DNA from: Halopiger djelfimassiliensis
Lineage (GTDB): Archaea > Halobacteriota > Halobacteria > Halobacteriales > Natrialbaceae
NCBI RefSeq assembly: GCF_000455365.1
Contig: NZ_HG315685.1
Coordinates: 237,514-301,513 of the forward strand
Length of the DNA: 64,000 nucleotides
Reading direction: 5' to 3'
The position numbers and the translations under genes are program-made. This document shows, piece by piece, positions 965-16,788 of the stretch (position 1 is its first letter; every line of letters starts with the position of its first letter). The notes under the pieces are model-generated. The model saw only the letters and a program-made list of their open reading frames with translations. It had not been told where the DNA came from and did no database searches.

Positions 965-1693
965 TCAGCCCCGTCGCGCGAGCAACGCGGCCACGACCGC
1001 CGCGATCGCCGCGATCGTCGCTCCGGCGGTTCCGCCCGGCACCGAGTCCGTGGCGTCGGGGCCGGATTCCGGCTTCGCGTCGTCGTTTCCAGAGCCCGCG
1101 GACGGGCCGTCCGTACCGACGGTCAGCGTCCCCGTCTCGAACGCGGGTTCGACGGGGCTGCCGCCGTCCGCGTCGATCTGTGCGTCCGTGACGTGCAGCG
1201 TCGTCTCGCCGTCGTCGACGCCGGTCACGTCCACGGTCGCCAGCGTGACGTCCGCCGCGCCGGGAGTGATCTCGTCGTTGAGGTCGGCGGCCTCGACGGT
1301 TATCCGCCGGTCGTCGGCGCTCACGATGGGGTCGGTCGTCATCCCGAAGTGATCGGGATAGCTGGCGTTCGTGACGGTCCCGACGCCGTCCTCCTCGAGC
1401 GCGAGGGTGAGTTTGAACCCCGCGAGTCCGTCCGGAACGCCGGTGAGCGCGATGCGGTGTGTTCCGCTCGACTCGGGTTCGGTCGTGACGTCGGTGACGA
1501 CGAGCGTGGGGTCGTCCGCCGTCTCCGCTCCGCCCACAGCACCGACGTTGGCGACACCCGCGCCGGCGGCGATCGGAGCGAACGCGACGCCGGCGACGAG
1601 TCCGACGCCGACCACCAGCAGCGCCAGCCGGCAACGCGTTCGATCCCTCCATCTCGCGTTCGGCGTCGCCGGATCGGAGTGGTGGCTGCCCAT
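965..1693 (-). CDS. membrane-anchored cohesin-like surface protein
   Basis: 242 residues. An N-terminal hydrophobic export segment (about 18-40) is followed by one cohesin-like beta-sandwich (about 58-190), then a Gly/Asp/Pro-rich linker and a C-terminal hydrophobic helix ending LLARRG. The junction reads DSVPGG, a variant of the VPGF sorting signal. The cohesin-like part shares VPDGLAG, TNASYPD, TTDPIVS and VTLATVDV with the cohesin-like domain of the PhoX-like protein encoded just upstream. The ATG at 1693 lies 5 bases after that gene's stop, so the two genes are almost certainly one transcript. Inference: it is a cell-surface partner or scaffold for a dockerin-bearing protein. Ligand binding is untested. 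Confidence 0.8.
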   Translation of the reverse strand: MGSHHSDPATPNARWRDRTRCRLALLVVGVGLVAGVAFAPIAAGAGVANVGAVGGAETADDPTLVVTDVTTEPESSGTHRIALTGVPDGLAGFKLTLALEEDGVGTVTNASYPDHFGMTTDPIVSADDRRITVEAADLNDEITPGAADVTLATVDVTGVDDGETTLHVTDAQIDADGGSPVEPAFETGTLTVGTDGPSAGSGNDDAKPESGPDATDSVPGGTAGATIAAIAAVVAALLARRG

Positions 1694-1698
1694 CGGCC

Positions 1699-4329
1699 TC
1701 ACAGTTCGTCGTACAGCGCCACGACGTCGTCGTAGTCGATGCGGCCGTTGTCGTTGAAGTCGAACGCGTCCTCGTTCAACTGCACGGCGTCGTCTTCGAG
1801 GTGTTCGAACAGCACGACCACGTCGTCGTAGTCCAGGCGGCCGTTGCCGTTGACGTCCTCGAAGCGGCCGTCGTCGTCGGGGTCCGTGGGGGAGCCGACG
1901 CCGCCGCCCCCGCCGCCGACCGGCGGCGGACCGGTGACGACGACGCCGGGACGGGGCTGTGGCTCGAGTGCGGTTCCCGAATCGTCGTCCAGTGCATGGA
2001 CGTCGAGCGTCAGGTCGGTCGTCCCTGCGCCGACGCCCTCGAGTTCGACGGTCGCCAGCGTGACGTCCGTCGCCCCCGACTGGATCTCGTTCTCGAGGTC
2101 CGCAAACCGGAACTCGACCGTCGAGCCGTCGTCGCTGACGACCGGATCGGCGGTGAGTTCGAGTGCGTCCGGGTAGCTGGCGTTCGTGATCGTCGCGACG
2201 TCCGTGTGTTCGACGGTGAGGCTGATGCGACCGCCCGCGAGGCCGTCGGGTATCGACGAAAGCGTCAGGTCGACCTCGCCGGTCGCTTCCTGGCTGACCG
2301 CGAGGGAGTCGACGCCGAGCGTCGCCGGCGGCTCGTAGACCCACAGCGCGTCGTTGGGGTACGAACGGCCGAAGCGACTCTTGTCCTCACAGAGGATGAC
2401 GCGCCCGTCGTCCATCACCATGACGTTGTCGACGTTGATGAGCGAGACGTCCTGCAGGGACTGTGGGTCGCTCGCGTTCGGGCCGACGATGACCGGTTCG
2501 AGCGTCGAGACGTCGTAGTCGGCCTCGAGTTCGGCCCGGTAGAGGACGCCGGTATCGACTTCGTCGAACCGGAGATCGCCGCGATCGTCGGTCATCGCGC
2601 CGCCGAGCGACGAGATTCCGAAGTAGATGAAGTCGCCGGGCTCGGCCTCGTCGTGGGAGTCGATCCCCTCGGCCTTGTTGAACTCGACGCTCGCGCCGAT
2701 CTCCTTTGCGGCGGCGCGGGTTTCGAGAAACGGGACCCGACGGAGCTCCTCGTCGACGCCGTCGGGGCCGCGTTCTTCGTACTGGGCGGCCCACTCGACG
2801 ATCTCCTCGTCGGTGATGTAATCCTGATTGCCGTCGATCGCGACCGCCTCGTCGGCCTCGCGCAGCGCCGTCTCGAGGTCGTCCTCCCAGTCGGTCTCGG
2901 CGTGGGTCTCGAGATAGTCGACCTGCGTGATGTCGTCGTATTCGGCGATCCAGGACTCGATCTCGGCGTTGCTGGCGGTCCCCAGTTCCAGCCACTCGAC
3001 GTCGAGGGTCGTCTCGGCGACCGGGCCGTCGCCGATCTCGGTCGCTTTCATCGCGTACAGCGTCCCGCGGACGTCCATCCGACTCTCGTAGTCGGGGATC
3101 GGCTCGTCGGCGACGAACTTGTAGATCCCCTTCGCGCCGCCGTCGGACGCGAGGTAGACGGTCCGCTCGTCCGGGAGGACTTCCGGACACTCCCAAGCCG
3201 CCCGGCCGAAGACGTGGTGTTTGACCGGGGTCGGCTCGTCGGCGGTCGGGTCGGTGATCTCGACGATGTGTCCGTACCGATAGCGGTTGGGAAACGCCTC
3301 GTCGTCGATCGGCCGAGGCGTGTTCTCCCCCGCGTCCTGATCGACCGGCTCCGCGCCGAGGTGGTAGGCGAGTTTCTCGTTGCCGGTGGTGGCCCACAGC
3401 CCCATGGGGTACCAGGCGTCGTCGCCGAAGATCTCCTCGAGTGCACCCTCGAGCCCCGCGATGTTGGGTCGGTTCCAGAACTCGCTGGCTCCGCGCAGGC
3501 CGACGCCGCTGCCGTCCTCGTGGATGTCGCTGACCGTCGCGGTCCCGTTGACCCGCGGATGGCTGTACTCCTCCTCGGCCGACAGCGGCGTCTCCCACGG
3601 GCTCAGGTCGCCGTAACAGTTGATCTTCGTTCCGCCAATCTCGCGGAACGCTGCGGTGTTCTCGAGCTCCATCGCGTTCTCGAGGTCGGACTCCCAGCCG
3701 TCGTCCTCGCGTCGGATCGGAGTTCGCGTGATCGCACCCGGACGGGTTTCGTTGTTGGTAAAGAGGTACCCCTCGGTTCCGTCCTCGTTCGTCGGGACGA
3801 AGAAGTTCATGTCGGCGACGCCGCCGACGCCGGCGTAGCTTTCGTCGACGACGTCGGCGACGTCCTCGCCGTCGGGGGTCTGTGGGTGGCCCCACCGCTC
3901 GGTCCCGCCGTTTATCGGATCGCCTTCCTGAGCGAGGAACGTGTAGTCGCCGGCGGCAGAGAGCACCTTCCCCTGTTCGCTCTCGGTCCGTGGCGGTTCC
4001 AGATCCTCGAACTCGTCGGTTTTGCCGTTGAAGGTGAACTGAAAGCCCTCGAAGACGCCGACGCCGCCGCGGTCGAACGGCTCGGGATTGTCAGGACTGG
4101 GCGACTGAAGGCTGTAGAGCAGTTCTCCGGTCTCGAAGACGAACGGTCCCGTCACTTCCGCCCCCCTGGCCGTCGTCGAGAACCGTTTGACCTGCCCGTT
4201 TACGTACGGCGCGGTCAGCGTATCGTGCTCGTCCGGCCGCTCGCGCGCACTCGCCATGCCGATCGTTCCCGCGCCGATCGCCGTCGCGATCGACGATGCC
4301 ATCAGCGTCCGCCTCGTAAATTCTACCAT
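1699..4329 (-). CDS. PhoX-like phosphatase with cohesin-like and dockerin-like domains
   Basis: 876 residues. A Tat signal (TRRTLMASS near residue 5, cleavage near MASA) exports the folded enzyme. Residues about 30-650 are a PhoX/DUF839 domain with the hallmark YGDLSPWETPLSAEEEY; family members are Ca/Fe-dependent alkaline phosphatases. Residues about 671-800 are a cohesin-like beta-sandwich, 801-815 a Pro/Gly linker, and 816-876 two Asp-rich repeats (DVNGNGRLDYDD and DFNDNGRIDYDD), each followed by an amphipathic helix, as in type I dockerins. A phosphatase carrying both binding modules is unusual. It shares a transcript with the anchored cohesin-like protein that follows. Phosphatase activity is inferred from the family; other DUF839 proteins are uncharacterised. 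Confidence 0.85.
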   Translation of the reverse strand: MVEFTRRTLMASSIATAIGAGTIGMASARERPDEHDTLTAPYVNGQVKRFSTTARGAEVTGPFVFETGELLYSLQSPSPDNPEPFDRGGVGVFEGFQFTFNGKTDEFEDLEPPRTESEQGKVLSAAGDYTFLAQEGDPINGGTERWGHPQTPDGEDVADVVDESYAGVGGVADMNFFVPTNEDGTEGYLFTNNETRPGAITRTPIRREDDGWESDLENAMELENTAAFREIGGTKINCYGDLSPWETPLSAEEEYSHPRVNGTATVSDIHEDGSGVGLRGASEFWNRPNIAGLEGALEEIFGDDAWYPMGLWATTGNEKLAYHLGAEPVDQDAGENTPRPIDDEAFPNRYRYGHIVEITDPTADEPTPVKHHVFGRAAWECPEVLPDERTVYLASDGGAKGIYKFVADEPIPDYESRMDVRGTLYAMKATEIGDGPVAETTLDVEWLELGTASNAEIESWIAEYDDITQVDYLETHAETDWEDDLETALREADEAVAIDGNQDYITDEEIVEWAAQYEERGPDGVDEELRRVPFLETRAAAKEIGASVEFNKAEGIDSHDEAEPGDFIYFGISSLGGAMTDDRGDLRFDEVDTGVLYRAELEADYDVSTLEPVIVGPNASDPQSLQDVSLINVDNVMVMDDGRVILCEDKSRFGRSYPNDALWVYEPPATLGVDSLAVSQEATGEVDLTLSSIPDGLAGGRISLTVEHTDVATITNASYPDALELTADPVVSDDGSTVEFRFADLENEIQSGATDVTLATVELEGVGAGTTDLTLDVHALDDDSGTALEPQPRPGVVVTGPPPVGGGGGGVGSPTDPDDDGRFEDVNGNGRLDYDDVVVLFEHLEDDAVQLNEDAFDFNDNGRIDYDDVVALYDEL

Positions 4330-4520: not shown

Positions 4521-4922
4521 TCACTCGAGACCGCGGGCGGCCGCTTCGGTTCGGATCTCCGCGGCGCGGTCGCGGACCCACGAACAGTACCGTTCGATAT
4601 CGGTCGGTGTCGCGCCGTAAAACGATGCGACCCAGTTGACGTCCGCCCATGGACGCGTGACCAGATACGCGGCGAGGGTGTCTTTGCCGCCCTGAACGAC
4701 TTCCGGCGGAATCCCGCGTTCACCGGTGCCCTCCTCGACGAACCCGTTGACGTCGAAGTAGACGTCGGCGTACAGGCGGGCGTCGTCCGGGTCATCGAAC
4801 GTCTCCGGCGTGTGATCCGGGGCCTCGAAGCGGTAGCGATCGCCATCGATTTCGACGATGCGGACGTCCAGAACGTAGTCCTCGACAAGCGATTCGTCGC
4901 AGTCGGCGTCGGCCCGGATCAT
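4521..4922 (-). CDS. conserved haloarchaeal hypothetical protein
   Basis: 133 residues, acidic, with no signal peptide or membrane segment. It has an N-terminal beta-rich part (EDYVLDVRIVEIDGDRYRF) and a C-terminal helical part (GGKDTLAAYLVTRPW, then WVASFYG and IERYCSWVRDRAAEIR). The WVASFYG/IERY region resembles a short helix-turn-helix-like or coiled helix pair, but I assign no function. An in-frame GTG at 4955 would add 11 residues; the ATG at 4922 starts a compact acidic protein and is preferred. It is transcribed alone, away from the fibronectin-like gene. Confidence 0.65.
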   Translation of the reverse strand: MIRADADCDESLVEDYVLDVRIVEIDGDRYRFEAPDHTPETFDDPDDARLYADVYFDVNGFVEEGTGERGIPPEVVQGGKDTLAAYLVTRPWADVNWVASFYGATPTDIERYCSWVRDRAAEIRTEAAARGLE

Positions 4923-5094
4923 CGATTCACCCTCATCGGTCTGAAATCTTTCCACTACTATATTGAATATTGATATGTATGCTATAGCTATCTCCGGAGC
5001 GATCCATACTGCTATCTACCCATATCGACCCGTCTCCGGGACGACCGACGTCGCATCGGCGAGGATAAAACGCGTCCGGACTCAGGAAAGAAGA

Positions 5095-5127: not shown

Positions 5128-6774
5128 ATGGGGAATACAACAGCCGTTACCTTCGGATCGAATCGAACGTGGGTGGCCCTCGTCGTCCTGTTTGCGGCGA
5201 CTGCCGCCCTCGCAGTACCCGCGGCGGCTACGACGACCGACCTCGAGCGAACCGCCGCGGCAGACGCCGACGAGGCCGGCCCGACGGTCCAGACCGCGTG
5301 GGCCGATAGGCTCAACGAGACCGCCTTCGTTGCCGGTGCGAACCTCTCCGACCTCGGCGACGCCAACGAGGCGAGCGTCCGGATCGAGTACCGGGAGAAC
5401 GGGACGGACGACGAGTGGACGACGGCGGACGTCGAACGGGTCAACTCGACGGAGACGGTCATCCTCGAGGTATCCGGCCTCGAGAAAGCGACGGCCTACG
5501 AGTACCGCGCCGTCGCCGAAACGACGTTCGGAACCGACGCCGGCGACGCCGAACTGTACATCACGCCGTACGACCCGCCGACGGTGACGACTGGAACGGC
5601 GGTCGACGTCTCCGAGACCGACGCGACGCTGACGGCGAACGTGAGCGACCTCGCCGAGCGCCCGTCGATGGACGTGTGGTTCTCGTACGCGCCGGCCGAC
5701 AGCGACGAGTTCCGATGGAACTGGAACGAGACGGAAACACAAACCATCGACTCGCCCGCCGTCGTGCGCCAGCCCGTGACGGATCTCGAACCCGGCACGG
5801 AGTACGAGTTCTACGTGAGCGTTCGCGACGCACGCGGTCACGAACAGTACTACTCCGGTGACATCGAAGGGTTCGCGACGGCGTCGCCGATCGCCGTCGA
5901 GACGGGGCCCGAAACGGCCGTCTCGGCGACCAGCGCCACGGTGACCGGCGACGTCGTCGAGTTCGGCGACGGCGCGACGACGTGGTTCGAGTACGGCCCG
6001 GCCGGAACCGACGAACGCGTCGAAACCGATCCGATCGCGCCGAACTCGGCCGGAACCGTCGAGACGACGCTCGGTGATCTCGAGCCGGGAACGACCTACG
6101 AGTTCCGACTCGTCGGCGAGGCGGCCGACGGCGAGACCGACGCCGGATCGTACCGCACGCTCGAGACGGCCGTCGATCCCGTCGTCGAGACGGGGTCCGC
6201 GACGACCGTCGACGAGGAGTCCGCGACGGTGACCGCCGCGCTGACCGACCTCGGCGGTGCCGACGCGGCGACCGTAAGCGTCGAGTACCGAGCCGCTGGT
6301 GCCGACGAGTGGAGCGAAACCGGCGCACAGCGCCTGACCGAACCCGGCACGCTCGAGGCGACGCTGCCGGCGCTCGAACCCGACACGGCCTACGAGTACC
6401 GGGCCGTCGTCGACGCCGGTGTCGTCACCGAAACGGGCGCGGTCGAAACGTTGACCACCGACCGTGCAACGCACGACCCGACCGTCGAGACCCTCTCCGG
6501 GAGCGACGACAGCCCGCCGAACCCACACGCCGAACTGACCGCCGACTGGCGCGTCGCCGACGCGGACGGCGACCTCTCGTCGGTGACGGTCACGATCGAG
6601 TCGAGTAACGGACGGACCGTCGCCGAAAGCGACCAGCGCGTCGACGGAACGACCGCCAGCGGGTCGCTCGAGGAAAGCGTGAAACACGGGGCCGGCGATG
6701 CCTACACCGTCACGCTCGAGGTCGTAGACGACGCCGGAGCCACCGTCACCGAGACGACGACGATCGACGCGTAA
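5128..6774 (+). CDS. secreted protein with repeated fibronectin-III-like domains
   Basis: 548 residues. A Sec-type signal peptide (hydrophobic segment about 17-36, ending PAAA) is followed by four or more repeats of about 85-95 residues of fibronectin-III type. Each ends with a strand like LEPGTTYEFRLV or LEPDTAYEYRAV followed by TLETA or TPYDPPT. The last about 90 residues (from HDPTVETLSG) form a different Ig-like beta domain. No C-terminal membrane helix or VPGF motif is visible, so the protein is probably released or held by another surface protein. Its role may be adhesion or carbohydrate/protein binding; no enzyme domain is seen. The stop is 29 bases from the convergent gpmI stop. Confidence 0.8.
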   Translation: MGNTTAVTFGSNRTWVALVVLFAATAALAVPAAATTTDLERTAAADADEAGPTVQTAWADRLNETAFVAGANLSDLGDANEASVRIEYRENGTDDEWTTADVERVNSTETVILEVSGLEKATAYEYRAVAETTFGTDAGDAELYITPYDPPTVTTGTAVDVSETDATLTANVSDLAERPSMDVWFSYAPADSDEFRWNWNETETQTIDSPAVVRQPVTDLEPGTEYEFYVSVRDARGHEQYYSGDIEGFATASPIAVETGPETAVSATSATVTGDVVEFGDGATTWFEYGPAGTDERVETDPIAPNSAGTVETTLGDLEPGTTYEFRLVGEAADGETDAGSYRTLETAVDPVVETGSATTVDEESATVTAALTDLGGADAATVSVEYRAAGADEWSETGAQRLTEPGTLEATLPALEPDTAYEYRAVVDAGVVTETGAVETLTTDRATHDPTVETLSGSDDSPPNPHAELTADWRVADADGDLSSVTVTIESSNGRTVAESDQRVDGTTASGSLEESVKHGAGDAYTVTLEVVDDAGATVTETTTIDA

Positions 6775-12589: not shown

Positions 12590-13549
12590 TTATTCTTCGA
12601 ACAGTACCGATGACCCGTTCTCGGACCAGTCGAGCACTCGGACGTCGCCGTTCTCGATCTCGACGTACGTGTTCTGTGGCCGCGTTGGGAGTTCGGCGGC
12701 CCTGCGCTCGGTCCACGCGCCAGTGTTGACGAAGCGGTCCCCGAGTTCCGTGTAGTGGGTGTGCCCGAAGACGACGAACTCCTCGTACTCGTCGAGCAGT
12801 TCGTTCGTTACCGTGTCCGCCGCTGGCGGCCGCTCGCCGGCAGCGTCGGGTTCGTAGTCGTCATCGTCGACCGGCGGCGGCTGTTCGAGGAGTTCGACGA
12901 TGTCGAGGTTCTCGGTCAGATCGTCCCACGTGTTCTCCTGCGTGGTTGCGGTCTCGTCGTCGTCGTTGATCAGTTCGTAGAACTCGATTATCACCTTCCC
13001 CAGATCGTCGCTGCCGGCACAGAGAAGGGCGCTGGTCAGGTCCGCCTGTTGTGGGTCGGCCCCGTCACCGTGGACAGCGACGAACTCCCGGCCGCCGCTT
13101 TCGAAGTAAAACTCCTCGCCGATGTGCCACGGCGCAGCGAGCGTTGCGGCGTCGTAGTCGTCGCGACCGACGTCGACGAGTCGACGATCGTGGTTTCCGG
13201 CGATGACCACGACCTCGATCCCCGAAGAAACGAGTTCCTCGAGTTGCGTCGTGACGTCGTTGTACTCGAGCAGCGTCGACGACATCCCGCGGTACCAGAA
13301 CTCGAAGAGATCACCGTTGAGCACGAGCGTATCCGGGTCGAGGTCCGGGACGTCCTCGCTGAGGAACTGGACGAACGCGTCGTCGTTCGAATACGGCGAT
13401 CCGAAGTGAACGTCGCTCGCCGCGACGACGTGGTTGTGGTCGGCATCCGCGAGCGCGCCGTCCATCGTCGCGCCGAGTGTCACTGTGCCCGCTGCCAGTC
13501 CGGCAGCTTTCATGTACGACCGTCGATCGAGGTGGGATTCCGGTGTCAT
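12590..13549 (-). CDS. Tat-exported metallophosphoesterase
   Basis: 319 residues. A Tat signal (DRRSYMKAAG at about 8-17) is followed by a calcineurin-like phosphoesterase with all metal motifs: SDVHFGS, LNGDLFEFW, AGNHDRR, VAVHGDGAD and VFGHTHY. These are the D-x-H, G-D, G-N-H-D and G-H-x-H ligands of a di-metal centre. The order resembles LpxH/UDP-2,3-diacylglucosamine hydrolase, but archaea lack lipid A, so the substrate is unknown. An acidic insert (about 185-235) contains NDDDETATTQ and PPPVDDDDYEPD. It diverges from the 5'-nucleotidase gene across an AT-rich intergenic region, so the two may be co-regulated. Confidence 0.88.
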   Translation of the reverse strand: MTPESHLDRRSYMKAAGLAAGTVTLGATMDGALADADHNHVVAASDVHFGSPYSNDDAFVQFLSEDVPDLDPDTLVLNGDLFEFWYRGMSSTLLEYNDVTTQLEELVSSGIEVVVIAGNHDRRLVDVGRDDYDAATLAAPWHIGEEFYFESGGREFVAVHGDGADPQQADLTSALLCAGSDDLGKVIIEFYELINDDDETATTQENTWDDLTENLDIVELLEQPPPVDDDDYEPDAAGERPPAADTVTNELLDEYEEFVVFGHTHYTELGDRFVNTGAWTERRAAELPTRPQNTYVEIENGDVRVLDWSENGSSVLFEE

Positions 13550-13794: not shown

Positions 13795-13817
13795 GTCCGT
13801 CTCCACCCTCTGTGTCT

Positions 13818-15989
13818 ATGGCTCGAGATTCCGGGGGACGGGACCCCGATCACGCCGCGGACGACGTCGGCCGAAGCCGTCGACGGTTTCTCGGCGCGAC
13901 CGTCGGCGTCTCGGTCGGCGCGCTTTTCCCTGCGACCGCACGCACTGTGGCCGACTCCGACGCGGAAACGGTGACGATCGTCCACGATACGCACTTCCAC
14001 GGCCGTCTCCGCGACGCCGAATCGGACGCGCTGAACATTGCGCGATACTACACGGCCGTCAGGGATATCCTCGACGGCGCGGCGAATTCGCTGTTCGTCG
14101 GCAACGGGGACGATCTGGCCCCGTCGATGCTCGGCCTCGAGTACGAAGGCGAGCATATGATCGAGGCGCTGAACTACATGGACGTCGACGTCAACGGGGT
14201 CGGAAACCACGAGTACGACTTCGGAGCGGACGTGGCGACGTCGCGGTTCGAGGAGAGCGAGTTTCCGTGGGTCGTCGCGAACTTGCTCGATGACGAGGGG
14301 AACGCGGTCCCCGGGACGGAGCGGTGGATCACGCTCGAGACCGGCGACCTGACTGTGGGCGTCTTCGGACTCGTCTCCGGAAGCTTCCACTCGCTGACCG
14401 ACTATCCCGCGGCGTGGTCGGTCCTCGATCCCGTCGAGGGCGCACGGGAGGCGGTCGAGGCGCTCCGTGCGTCGGGTGCCGACGTCGTCGTCGCGGCGTC
14501 ACACGTCACGACGGGGGTCCACGACACGCTCGCCGCCGAGGTCGACGGCCTCGATGCGATCGTCGGCTCCCACTCCGGAGTCGTCTTCGACGAACCGGAC
14601 GTCGTCGACGGGACGATCGTCAGCGAGTTCGGCGACGAGTTCGACCACGTCGGTTCGATCACGCTCGACGCCGACGGGAGCCTCGTCGACTGGCAGCGAA
14701 CCGATCTGCTCGGCCCAGACGCCGAGCCGGCACCCGAAGCCGACGCGTACGAGGAGATCCGTACCCGTTCCGTCGATACGATCGACCCCGATCCGTTCCT
14801 CGCCGACCTGACCGAGGAGTGGGCCGCACAGCTCGAGGCCGAACTCGGGAAGACGGCCTTCGAAAGCGAGGTCGAACTGAACGCGACGTACGACAACTAC
14901 GCGGTCGAGACCAACTGGGGGAACCTCATGACCGACGCGATGCGAACCGTCGGATCGATCGGCGATATCGACGTCGACATCGCCGTCCAGAACGCCGGCG
15001 GCATTCGAAGCGACTCGACGTACGGCCCCGGCGAGATCACCGGCGCTGACGTGTTGAACGTCCTGCCGTTCCCGAACGAAATCGTCGTCGTCGAACTGAC
15101 CGGCGAGGCGGTCGTCGACTACCTCGAGGAGGCGATCCGGTCCCACCCGGCCCCCGACTTCGGCGCACAGCAGGCGGTTCAGGTGTCGGGACTCTCCTAC
15201 GAGTGGACGGGACACGAGGGCGAGACCCGCGTCGAGAACGTCTTCGTCGACGGCGAGCCGATCGATCCCGACGGGACCTACACCCTCGCGCACAACGACT
15301 ACTCCGTCGGCAACTCGGCGGTGCTTTCGGCGGCCGAGGTCGTCCTCGAGTCCGGCCAGCTACAGGGACCGTACGTCCTCGAGCAACTCGAACGGAAGGA
15401 TACCGTCGCCCCGGAACGCGAAAACCGAATCCTTCGCGTCGACGAGGTCGTCGGGGAGGCGTCGGCGTCCCGCGACGGCGACGAGGTGACGCTTACCGCC
15501 GCCGTCCCGAACGGGGCCGAGACGATCGACACCGACTCGTTCCGCGCGGTAATCCGGACCGGCGACGAACTCGCGGCGAAATCGGCCCGCGTCGACGGGG
15601 ATACCGTCGCCGTGACGTTCGACGCGGCCGACCTGACCGCGCTCGCCGAGACCGTCGATTCGCCGGTGATGCGCCTGTTCGGCCGCTACGATCCGGCACA
15701 GGACGCCTGGCCGTACGACTTCGAGGTCCCGACCTCGAGCGGCTACGATCGCTTCGTGCTCCGGGCCGACGTGAGCGCGAGCGCGGTGCTTGGTGACGAT
15801 TCCGACGGGAACGGGACCGGTGACGGCGGATCCGATGATGGTACCGACACCGACGGCGACGGCGTCCCCGGATTCGGACCGCTCGCCGCGCTTGCCGGCG
15901 GTGGCGCCGGAACGTACGCCTACGCCCGCGGCCGGGCGGACGACGAATCGTCCGCAACGACCGACCGGAGCGGCCCCGATCGGCCGTAA
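13818..15989 (+). CDS. Tat-exported, VPGF-anchored bifunctional metallophosphatase/5'-nucleotidase
   Basis: 723 residues, UshA/NT5E family: hydrolyses nucleotides to nucleosides outside the cell. Tat signal SRRRFLGAT at about 23-31. The N-terminal metallophosphatase domain has VHDTHFHG, GNGDD, GVGNHEYDFG and ASHVTTGVHD; the C-terminal substrate domain (about 350-540) has NWGNLMTDAM, QNAGGIRSD and GEITGADVLNVLPF. A beta domain (about 545-655), then a Ser/Gly/Asp linker, DGDGVPGFGPLAALAGGG and a basic tail follow, an archaeosortase-type anchor. A GTG at 13812 would add two residues. It is 7 bases upstream of, and likely co-transcribed with, a cohesin-like anchored protein. Released nucleosides could feed the nucleoside phosphorylase encoded near 52 kb. 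Confidence 0.93.
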   Translation: MARDSGGRDPDHAADDVGRSRRRFLGATVGVSVGALFPATARTVADSDAETVTIVHDTHFHGRLRDAESDALNIARYYTAVRDILDGAANSLFVGNGDDLAPSMLGLEYEGEHMIEALNYMDVDVNGVGNHEYDFGADVATSRFEESEFPWVVANLLDDEGNAVPGTERWITLETGDLTVGVFGLVSGSFHSLTDYPAAWSVLDPVEGAREAVEALRASGADVVVAASHVTTGVHDTLAAEVDGLDAIVGSHSGVVFDEPDVVDGTIVSEFGDEFDHVGSITLDADGSLVDWQRTDLLGPDAEPAPEADAYEEIRTRSVDTIDPDPFLADLTEEWAAQLEAELGKTAFESEVELNATYDNYAVETNWGNLMTDAMRTVGSIGDIDVDIAVQNAGGIRSDSTYGPGEITGADVLNVLPFPNEIVVVELTGEAVVDYLEEAIRSHPAPDFGAQQAVQVSGLSYEWTGHEGETRVENVFVDGEPIDPDGTYTLAHNDYSVGNSAVLSAAEVVLESGQLQGPYVLEQLERKDTVAPERENRILRVDEVVGEASASRDGDEVTLTAAVPNGAETIDTDSFRAVIRTGDELAAKSARVDGDTVAVTFDAADLTALAETVDSPVMRLFGRYDPAQDAWPYDFEVPTSSGYDRFVLRADVSASAVLGDDSDGNGTGDGGSDDGTDTDGDGVPGFGPLAALAGGGAGTYAYARGRADDESSATTDRSGPDRP

Positions 15990-15996
15990 CACGACG

Positions 15997-16788
15997 ATGA
16001 ACGCGATGCCCCGAACGGTTCACGACGATCCGTCGCTCGGGACGCTCGCCGGACGTGCGATCGGGATCTGTCTCGTCGTTCTCGTCGCGGTCGCGGGTAG
16101 CGCGGCCGGGACGGCCGTCGCCGGTGACCGCGTCGCAGTCGTCACGCCGACGCCACAGACGGTCGAGACCGAACCGGGCGAACGGTTCACGGTCACCGTG
16201 ACCATGCAAAGCGACGGCGGCCACGGCGGGGAGGGGATCCGTTCGGTCGACTTCGTCGCCCGGTATCATCCCGACTATCTCGAGATCACCGATGTCGAGC
16301 GGGGACCGTGGCTCGAACAGGGGCCGGAGACCGATGTCCGAGTGGAGCGCACGCTCGCACACGAGGACGGCACCGCCGTTCTCGAGCAACGACGCGAACC
16401 GGTCGCGGACGGGGCGACCGGCGACGCGGTGCTCGCGACGATCACCGCCGAGGTCGCCGAGGACGCCCCGCCCGCGGAACCGACGATCTCGTTCGGCGAA
16501 ACCGGCGTTCAGCCGGCCCGCGGCTGGCCGTTGCCGGTCCACGAGCGGAACGTGACCGTCGAAATTGACGGCGGCGGTGACGAAACTCCCACGTTCGACC
16601 ATCCCGATCCCGACGCGCTCGAGGCCGACGGGACGGACGCGGGGCTGCCCGAGACGCCCGGATCCGAGAACCGCACGACCAACGGGACTGCCGACAGCGC
16701 CGACGGAGATGCCGTTCCCGGGTTCACTGCCACGCTCGCACTGCTGCTTGTCAGCGCCGGTGTTGCCGTCTTCGCTCGCGCAAGCTGA
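15997..16788 (+). CDS. cohesin-like surface protein with VPGF anchor (copy A)
   Basis: 263 residues. A signal peptide (hydrophobic segment about 19-41, ending AVAG) is followed by a cohesin-like domain (about 43-185): VVTPTPQTVETEPGE, a central ARYHPDYLEITDVERGPW, a long loop and a final NVTVEIDGG. A disordered linker follows, then DAVPGFTATLALLLVSAGVA and FARAS, a PGF-CTERM-type sorting signal probably processed by archaeosortase. Two ATGs (15997 and 16006) are possible; the first is 7 bases after the 5'-nucleotidase stop. It is paralogous to the gene at 18337-19122, sharing HPDYLE(I/V)TD(V/I)ERGPWLE. Role inferred: docking module beside the nucleotidase. Confidence 0.8.
   Translation: MNAMPRTVHDDPSLGTLAGRAIGICLVVLVAVAGSAAGTAVAGDRVAVVTPTPQTVETEPGERFTVTVTMQSDGGHGGEGIRSVDFVARYHPDYLEITDVERGPWLEQGPETDVRVERTLAHEDGTAVLEQRREPVADGATGDAVLATITAEVAEDAPPAEPTISFGETGVQPARGWPLPVHERNVTVEIDGGGDETPTFDHPDPDALEADGTDAGLPETPGSENRTTNGTADSADGDAVPGFTATLALLLVSAGVAVFARAS

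Follow-up and report, generated by a model that had tools for sequence, protein, structure and literature searches.

Cellulosomes, the multi-enzyme complexes that bacteria build with the plug-and-socket of dockerin and cohesin modules, are described for anaerobic bacteria and fungi (PMC12484212, the main text of which does not use the word 'archaea'). Archaeal cohesin–dockerin pairs are also known and were verified to bind (PMC9012536). The same source cites the view that archaea with cohesins or dockerins lack large scaffoldins, although it reports proteins with up to five cohesins, together with dockerin cargo, in anaerobic methanotrophs (ANME). In Clostridium perfringens, glycoside hydrolases carry their own cohesin modules (PDB 2w1n, 2jh2, 2vo8), with pairing of cohesin and dockerin between such enzymes, a pairing that was not examined here. 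In haloarchaea, the dockerin of a GH26 enzyme has been said to take part in substrate binding (PMC10963439), a reading that is repeated in PMC13260240. Our searches of open-licence PMC, in which most records were considered as listings and the text of PMC10267330, PMC10963439, PMC4569967, PMC13260240, PMC12484212, PMC11557425, PMC10301127, PMC11239784, and PMC9726719 was queried or consulted, returned no description of haloarchaeal cohesins or cellulosomes.

Here, we examine a pair of adjacent genes in a 64,000-nucleotide stretch (hereafter ‘the window’) of the genome of the salt-loving archaeon Halopiger djelfimassiliensis (GCF_000455365.1, contig NZ_HG315685.1, positions 237,514 to 301,513). 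An initial annotation, made from the sequence alone, had described a Tat-exported PhoX phosphatase (here P0001) with a cohesin-like module and a two-repeat dockerin-like tail, followed 5 bases later by a membrane-anchored protein with a cohesin-like domain (here P0002), and had proposed that the enzyme attaches to the anchored partner and could self-associate. The observation is confirmed. The interpretation is supported: the domain reading is right by fold, profile, and conservation, and the proposed role is the best-supported explanation, although binding was not measured and no model of the complex was made. Two corrections are required. The initial annotation held that an archaeal cohesin–dockerin system on a phosphatase would be a new kind of surface enzyme complex, but an archaeal pair as such is not new; and the larger finding lies outside the annotated coordinates, in that the same module family forms large, apparently unrecognised multi-cohesin, cellulase-bearing clusters in other haloarchaea.

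Features of the phosphatase and anchor genes (window coordinates; all on the minus strand)
Coordinates	Feature	Residues	Remarks
1699..4329	PhoX–cohesin–dockerin protein (P0001)	876 aa	
4246..4329	Tat-type signal, TRRTLMAS then hydrophobic stretch	1-28	Read by eye; no signal-peptide program was run
2374..3672	PhoX catalytic domain as matched by Pfam	220-652	Contains NCYGDLSPW
1930..2313	Cohesin module of the phosphatase	673-800	
1885..1929	Pro/Gly-rich linker between cohesin and dockerin		Lowest model confidence
1702..1884	Dockerin	816-876	
1822..1857	Dockerin Ca-loop 1, DVNGNGRLDYDD		
1726..1761	Dockerin Ca-loop 2, DFNDNGRIDYDD		
965..1693	Anchored cohesin protein (P0002)	242 aa	
1559..1636	N-terminal hydrophobic export/signal segment of P0002		Read by eye
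1115..1498	Cohesin module of the anchor protein		
968..1048	C-terminal membrane segment, DSVPGG...ALLARRG		Variant of the PGF-bearing tail of relatives

The two genes are separated by the 5 bases 1694-1698, between stop and ATG. A reading of P0002 from a GTG at 2344 was rejected, as that frame is only the mechanical longest one, whereas the ATG at 1693 fits relatives. The catalytic part of P0001 matches PF05787 at 88.9 bits (E 5.7e-25; cutoff 24), and its motif NCYGDLSPW aligns with NCANGKTPW of the PDB PhoX around the Cys at chain position 179 (Cys179 binds iron), although that stretch alone scores only 4.8 bits; phosphatase activity was not assayed. The profile search for PF00404 that the initial annotation had called for placed a dockerin at residues 824-872, at 18.1 bits in an hmmscan of the protein and at 23.0 bits in a search of the genome. 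With a cutoff of 22.9 bits, these scores fall on either side of the line, and Pfam alone thus leaves membership undecided. The best solved-structure match by sequence is a CelS dockerin (E 0.042). The tail has the duplicated Ca-loop with helix, in about 60 residues, expected of a type I dockerin, with helices in the predicted structure. At least two loops are present in 149 of 153 dockerin stretches scored over 40 bits (some genes were counted twice through overlapping loci). We do not use the loop motif by itself as evidence, since 493 of 20000 shuffles of this Asp/Asn/Gly-rich stretch also give at least two.

The cohesin-like modules are barely visible to sequence profiles. The search for PF00963, likewise proposed in advance, gave no match in P0001 or P0002 at E<=1, and no Pfam or NCBIfam family was found in P0002; among 35 family modules, 5 match PF00963 at E<=1 (best 3.1e-4), and the best PDB profile hit is a scaffoldin C cohesin (E 0.026). 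We therefore refer to a diverged cohesin-fold family rather than to a member of PF00963. Nonetheless, the two window modules match each other at 41% identity (E 1.5e-23), and a fold search with the structure predictions suggested beforehand overturned the rejection to which Pfam and NCBIfam alone would have led. The AlphaFold model of the P0002 module has pLDDT 94.4 and pTM 0.87, and the 50 Foldseek PDB rows examined, of 109 at E<=0.001, are all chains with a cohesin (best E 9.1e-9). In a VIA-align search with this model, Z reaches 15.7, with the C. perfringens modules at 15.2-15.5 and the Archaeoglobus cohesin 2xdh at 15.6 (rmsd 2.0 over 124 residues); the first other entry appears only at rank 50 (Z 10.8), counting as a cohesin rank 27 (2o4e), which is titled only as a protein–protein interaction module of a C. 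perfringens GH84. The P0001 module reaches Z 14.4, but two non-cohesin entries (9ifr, Z 10.4; 7wrk, Z 9.7) rank among the weaker cohesins for the model of the cohesin–dockerin tail. That model has pTM 0.63 and a linker block of pLDDT 43 and hence shows no docked state. At its C-terminus, P0002 has a hydrophobic stretch followed by RR (read by eye); 26 of 29 related anchors carry ‘PGF’ there, whereas the window protein reads VPGG and gives no PGF-CTERM hit.

The pairing of the two genes is conserved. Of the 29 best-scoring non-self loci, 29 show a cohesin–dockerin tail beside an anchored cohesin, and of 18 loci from named genomes, partly the same genomes, 17 show both genes. PhoX is matched in 61 of 125 family genomes, which we divided by hand into 44 with the long (cohesin–dockerin) PhoX (three with broken frames: G019, G064, and G072 in our numbering of genomes), 16 with only a short PhoX, and one (G006) with only a distant PhoX. 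By the listed coordinates, 43 of the 44 have an anchor match beside the long PhoX (the exception is G022), whereas 0 of the 16 have an anchor of this type. Three of these 16, however, have some cohesin match with a more sensitive profile (G055, two modules; G087, E 4.1e-16; G001, E 2.3e-6), of which G087 and G001 were not looked at. Both modules occur in 55 of the 125 family genomes, with 5 having only the cohesin and 3 only the dockerin (G039, G110, and G118, E 4.9e-20 to 4.0e-13). In 391 genomes of the class, at E<=1e-8, 146 have both, 4 only the cohesin, and 17 only the dockerin. These counts are lower bounds, since a capped number of candidates was scored per genome, two of the profiles (A1 and A4) contain the window and fetched loci, which match by construction, and much of the co-occurrence comes from genes that are neighbours, partly fused. 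In the Halopiger genome itself, only one dockerin of this type was found; a second PF00404 hit, a subtilase, was not taken as a partner because the family dockerin profile does not find it.

Dockerin and anchor cohesin also diverge together. In 29 of 30 PhoX systems (L025 was dropped, as too little enzyme sequence precedes its cohesin), their divergence correlates at r 0.80 (partial r 0.78 given the enzyme; 0 of 5000 permutations), far more than that of the dockerin (r 0.35) or the anchor cohesin (r 0.30) with the enzyme part. Dockerin and own cohesin correlate at r 0.77, and own and anchor cohesins at r 0.82. A broader comparison over 41 systems (r 0.95) largely reflects the split between phosphatase and cellulase systems (within them, r 0.80, 0 of 5000 permutations, and r 0.77, 5 of 5000), and we therefore rely on the PhoX-only test with the enzyme part as control. 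Correlated divergence could also arise if the contiguous stretch of cohesin, dockerin, and anchor is exchanged as one DNA cassette.

In other haloarchaea, the same modules form cellulosome-like clusters. Multi-cohesin proteins, with up to 10 cohesins in one protein, lie beside 4 to 14 dockerin proteins in the fetched stretches of G008 (strain KZCA124), G007, G085, G066, G068, G069, G011, and G059, and such a protein is also found in HArcel1. Dockerins are borne by GH5, GH9, GH10, and GH43 enzymes; enzymes were identified by Pfam in samples from G008, G007 (one PL14), G066, G011, G085, and HArcel1, and those of G068, G069, and G059 were not scanned. A separate anchored cohesin was called in G008, G007, G085, G066, G068, G069, and HArcel1 but not in the fetched G011 and G059 stretches; gene starts in loci L038-L083 come from our own codon-score caller and are approximate. 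The genome identified as Halococcoides cellulosivorans has 71 dockerin matches. Whether the scaffolds carry a carbohydrate-binding module is left undecided: CBM5/12 scores 24.0 and 23.6 bits in G066 and G011, against a cutoff of 26.2, and Pfam finds none in the G008 protein at E<=0.01, while CBM6 is listed for the G007 counterpart (PMC10963439). Isolation of a physical complex was outside this analysis; published observations on HArcel strains are consistent with one, in that activity on insoluble cellulose was seen only with cells, but CMC-degrading endoglucanases were in both cells and supernatant (PMC4569967).

We consider it likely that the window genes form a minimal cohesin–dockerin surface-display system. 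In this view, PhoX is exported and its Ca-loop dockerin plugs into the cohesin of the neighbouring protein, which is held in the membrane by its C-terminal segment, so that a phosphate-scavenging enzyme stays at the cell surface. Because the phosphatase also has a cohesin of the same family, further copies could plausibly attach through it and form a chain, a step that we put forward only tentatively. Our computations show both folds, the conservation of the pair, the joint presence or absence of long PhoX and anchor, and the correlated divergence of dockerin and cohesins; Ca-dependent binding, surface location, phosphatase activity, and chain formation are inferences.

Three other readings were weighed. 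That the EF-hand tail is a Ca-binding stabiliser or substrate-binding domain, the cohesin-fold modules being spacers and nothing docking, draws on the published statements about haloarchaeal dockerins, the borderline Pfam score, and the genomes with this dockerin and no cohesin match (3 of 58 in the family, 17 of 163 in the class sample). We consider it unlikely, as the modules are cohesins by fold, anchor and long PhoX go together, one protein carries 10 cohesins beside dockerin enzymes, and dockerin divergence tracks the anchor cohesin, not the enzyme. Equally unlikely is closure in cis, in which the dockerin folds back on the cohesin of its own chain and no complex forms: the two modules share a chain with a short linker and co-diverge, but the dockerin co-diverges at least as well with the anchor cohesin encoded by another gene, that gene is kept in 43 of 44 genomes, and the tail model shows no rigid docked arrangement, which is weak evidence.

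A third possibility, which shares the first step of our favoured explanation and thus overlaps with it, is that the dockerin binds P0002 while the phosphatase's own cohesin serves another dockerin or is a structural remnant, so that no phosphatase chains form. The modest identity of the two window cohesins is in its favour, as is the finding that 18 PhoX-type anchor modules are 60-69% identical to that of P0002 but four own modules of other systems only 34-40%. Against it, with only one dockerin of this type found in the genome, the own cohesin has no other partner of this type there, and own and anchor cohesins co-diverge. This reading is possible; docking of P0001 to its own cohesin was not tested.

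More broadly, the evidence is compatible with the window pair being a minimal, self-extending, single-enzyme member of a cohesin–dockerin family spread over haloarchaea, the same family building true cellulosomes in extremely halophilic archaea, with multi-cohesin scaffolds, layered scaffolds that carry their own dockerin, anchored cohesins, and many dockerin modules per genome. We regard this as about as likely as not; if true, it would explain why activity on insoluble cellulose is cell-bound in these organisms. The finding offers a testable answer to how haloarchaea that degrade insoluble cellulose keep the activity on the cell, and it questions the reading of their dockerins as substrate-binding. 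The use of the plug-and-socket for a phosphatase points to a general surface-display system, and a salt-proof cohesin–dockerin pair would also be a useful tool.

Among described systems, the glycoside hydrolase clusters of Natronoglomus mannanivorans and strain KZCA124 (PMC10963439) are apparently the same clusters as ours: gene order and four lengths (759, 589, 577, and 578 aa) of the published table agree with G007, and the listed 1,755-aa ‘GH5/CBM6’ and 258-aa ‘S-layer glycoprotein’ stand where our 8-cohesin protein and anchored cohesin stand, but the main text of that paper does not mention cohesin, cellulosome, or scaffold. The non-cellulosomal cohesin of Archaeoglobus fulgidus (2xdh) shares the archaeal cohesin fold with the P0002 module at only 18% identity, and we know of no PhoX cargo there, although this was not searched. 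The ANME proteins likewise combine several cohesins with dockerin cargo, but they belong to anaerobic methanotrophs, the common cargo named is ABC-transporter binding proteins, and no glycoside hydrolase clusters are named in the passages considered (PMC9012536). The C. perfringens enzymes resemble P0001 in carrying their own cohesin but are glycoside hydrolases of a bacterium. Finally, the haloarchaeal clusters share with clostridial type I cellulosomes the cohesin fold, two-loop dockerins, and a multi-cohesin protein plus dockerin enzymes, mostly with an anchored cohesin; haloarchaea, however, are described as mostly aerobic heterotrophs (PMC10267330), anchoring is by a C-terminal membrane segment, and the window system, with one enzyme and one cohesin per protein, lacks the multi-cohesin scaffold and the several dockerin glycosidases of a cellulosome.

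Two adjacent genes on the minus strand of the window, separated by 5 bases, encode an 876-aa protein and, downstream of it, a 242-aa protein, here called P0002 (see the table below). The first has a Tat-type N-terminus (read by eye), a PhoX domain (PF05787, 88.9 bits), a beta-sandwich module, a Pro/Gly-rich linker, and a C-terminal dockerin with two Ca-loops. A profile of it and six relatives matches solved PhoX structures (E 7e-10). The second has an N-terminal hydrophobic segment, a module homologous to that of the first (41% identity, E 1.5e-23), and a C-terminal membrane segment. The initial annotation, which had described a PhoX-like phosphatase with cohesin- and dockerin-like modules of its own next to a membrane-anchored cohesin-like protein, was right about the parts.

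Location and nature of the features discussed (coordinates without a prefix refer to the window; L-numbers denote fetched loci, G-numbers genomes)
Location	Strand	Residues	Feature
1699-4329	-	1-876	876-aa PhoX phosphatase
within 1699-4329	-	220-652	PhoX domain (PF05787)
within 1699-4329	-	673-800	beta-sandwich (cohesin-like) module
within 1699-4329	-	816-876	C-terminal dockerin with two Ca-loops
965-1693	-		242-aa anchored protein (P0002)
4521-4955	-		144-aa gene without a Pfam match
5128-6774	+		protein made of fibronectin type III-like domains
12590-13549	-		calcineurin-like phosphoesterase
13812-15989	+		5'-nucleotidase-like protein
15997-16788	+		small protein with PF00963 match, 39.7 bits
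18337-19122	+		small protein with PF00963 match, 21.2 bits
L057:5246-9667	-		subtilase with internal PF00404 dockerin, same genome as the window
L044:8777-12938, L045:8981-13169, L046:5414-9608			large proteins with a cohesin-dockerin tail in G002, G004, and G005
L052:9433-10013	+		anchor gene split over two frames in G067
L039:15311-17014, L041:17971-19707, L042:10387-12000, L055:14638-16347			similar-ended protein of about 570 aa without dockerin

A profile search for the Pfam cohesin family PF00963 and a structure prediction of the module had both been named in advance as tests of this reading, and they gave different answers. By sequence, the module is hardly recognizable as a cohesin: neither protein matches PF00963, 5 of 35 related modules match it at E<=1 (best 3.1e-4), and the best profile hit among solved structures is a scaffoldin C cohesin at E 0.026. 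By predicted structure, the assignment is clear. The P0002 module is modelled with pLDDT 94.4 and pTM 0.87, and all 50 listed Foldseek matches are cohesin-bearing chains (best E 9.1e-9). In a further comparison with VIA-align, ranks 1-49 are cohesins, with Z from 15.7 down to 11.1 and the Archaeoglobus cohesin 2xdh at Z 15.6, whereas the first other entry is at Z 10.8. The phosphatase's own module also matches cohesins best (Z up to 14.4), although in that case two other entries appear among the weaker rows, at Z 10.4 and 9.7.

Within the family to which the window's organism belongs, 52 of 125 genomes match P0002, and the 29 best-scoring non-self loci (29 of 29) show a cohesin–dockerin tail beside an anchored cohesin. 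A scan of named genomes yielded 18 loci, in Natrialba, Natrinema, Halopiger, Halostagnicola, Haloterrigena, Halovivax, Halomicrobium, and two other archaea; 17 of the 18 show both genes, although some of these genomes are the same as in the family search. PhoX itself matches in 61 of 125 genomes, of which 44 have the long form, 16 have only short forms (open frames of 682-766 aa) without the tail, and one has a distant relative. An anchor match lies beside the PhoX gene in 43 of the 44 (the exception being genome G022), and P0002 finds none of this type in the 16. Among these, G055 has a weak match to a two-cohesin protein and, with the more sensitive profile, G087 (E 4.1e-16) and G001 (E 2.3e-6) also have a cohesin match, which was not examined further. 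One short form (G094) is 85% identical to the window in the enzyme part, so tail and anchor seem to be gained or lost together, independently of the enzyme. In G067, the anchor gene beside two PhoX copies is split over two frames, reflecting either a pseudogene or a sequencing error. The 144-aa gene beside PhoX has similar short counterparts at that position in loci L052, L053, and L054, and the protein with fibronectin type III-like domains lies on the other strand, upstream of the PhoX gene.

To examine whether the parts fit each other, distances were compared over 29 PhoX systems (one of 30 was dropped). Dockerin distances correlate with anchor-cohesin distances at r 0.80 and with own-cohesin distances at r 0.77, but with the last 200 residues of the enzyme on the same chain at only 0.35; the partial r for dockerin and anchor given the enzyme is 0.78, with 0 of 5000 permutations as high. 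In the four genomes in which both a phosphatase and a cellulase system were compared (G008, G011, G059, and G066), cohesins and dockerins are each closer on average to the same system in other genomes than to the other system at home, by a small margin for the cellulase-type cohesins (0.62-0.67 against 0.65-0.76). This is what partner specificity predicts, but exchange of the contiguous DNA as a cassette could give the same pattern. The tail looks like a transferable module: in genomes G002, G004, and G005, it sits on another large protein beside an anchored cohesin, and the G004 copy has ABC_transp_aux, DUF4350, and SNase domains.

Taken together, the computation establishes the domains, the conservation of the pair, the joint gain or loss of tail and anchor, and the correlated divergence of the parts. 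What follows from there is inference: the phosphatase is secreted, its dockerin takes Ca and binds the anchored cohesin, and the enzyme is held at the surface, where a second phosphatase may bind the first through its own cohesin. We consider tethering likely, whereas chain formation is a tentative suggestion that we rate as slightly less probable than not. The mechanism proposed in the initial annotation, namely attachment to the anchored partner with possible self-association of the enzyme, is probably right. The calcineurin-like phosphoesterase and the 5'-nucleotidase-like protein lie 8 to 10 kb from the PhoX pair, suggesting a possible phosphate-scavenging neighbourhood. Two more small proteins with PF00963 matches (the second below cutoff) and PGF-type C-termini are also found in the window, the first just after the 5'-nucleotidase-like gene; with the subtilase of the same genome, whose internal PF00404 dockerin scores 40.8 bits, they possibly represent a second, separate cohesin–dockerin system.

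With profiles of the modules, 55 of 125 family genomes have both, 5 have only the cohesin (all weak, E>=7e-8), 3 have only the dockerin (E 4.9e-20 to 4.0e-13), and 62 have neither. In a sample of 391 genomes of the class at E<=1e-8, the corresponding numbers are 146 with both, 4 with cohesin only, 17 with dockerin only, and 224 with neither. The number of candidates scored was capped, so these counts are lower bounds.

The same modules occur in clusters that look like cellulosome loci, which we regard as the larger finding. G008 (Halovivax sp. KZCA124) has a protein with GH5 and 10 cohesin modules, followed by an anchored single cohesin ending in a PGF motif and by 10 dockerin-bearing genes in about 24 kb (one read in two pieces across a locus border), with one more just upstream; those scanned include GH5, GH10, and GH81. 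G007 has 8 modules plus anchor, G085 at least 5 (at a contig end) plus anchor, G066 three plus anchor, G068 and G069 two plus anchor, and G011 and G059 two without an anchor called nearby. In each fetched stretch lie 4 to 14 dockerin proteins, including GH9 in G011 and RGL11 in G066. Per genome, dockerin/cohesin matches are 47/12 (G085), 32/18 (G008), 29/15 (G007), 19/7 (G066), 13/3 (G095), and 13/4 (G096), phosphatase systems included. The similar-ended protein of about 570 aa recurs in the cellulase clusters; its G011 copy has no Pfam match at E<=0.001, while a 578-aa ‘CBM3’ protein is listed at the position of the G007 copy (PMC10963439). G126, a genome of another family of the order identified as Halococcoides cellulosivorans HArcel1, has 71 dockerin matches (70 at E<1e-12, one weak) and 15 cohesin matches. 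Of the seven cohesin proteins read there, four also carry a dockerin, as in layered scaffolds, and two end in a membrane segment. Ten dockerin proteins scanned are four GH5, three GH10, two GH43, and one with lectin domains and a sub-cutoff GH39 match.

The G007- and KZCA124-type clusters have been described (PMC10963439), but the big protein is listed as ‘GH5/CBM6, 1,755 aa’ and its neighbour as a 258-aa ‘S-layer glycoprotein’, a dockerin is called substrate-binding, and the main text mentions neither cohesin nor cellulosome. The substrate-binding reading is repeated elsewhere (PMC13260240). GH5 proteins of up to 2,101 aa with ‘other yet undetectable domains’ have been reported (PMC10267330), in a paper that uses ‘cellulosome’ only in an introduction to bacterial models and a reference. 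Activity on insoluble cellulose was reported to be only cell-bound, while CMC-degrading activity was in cells and supernatant (PMC4569967). Phrase searches for archaeal or haloarchaeal cellulosomes in open-licence PMC found no paper, and the one paper containing haloarchaea, cellulosome, and dockerin (PMC10301127) uses these terms apart. Archaeal cohesin–dockerin pairs as such, and ANME proteins with up to 5 cohesins, are already known (PMC9012536). Against this background, the pair described here is new in its form, a PhoX phosphatase bearing both modules beside an anchored cohesin, rather than in kind, and its real weight is the haloarchaeal cohesin–dockerin family to which it leads.
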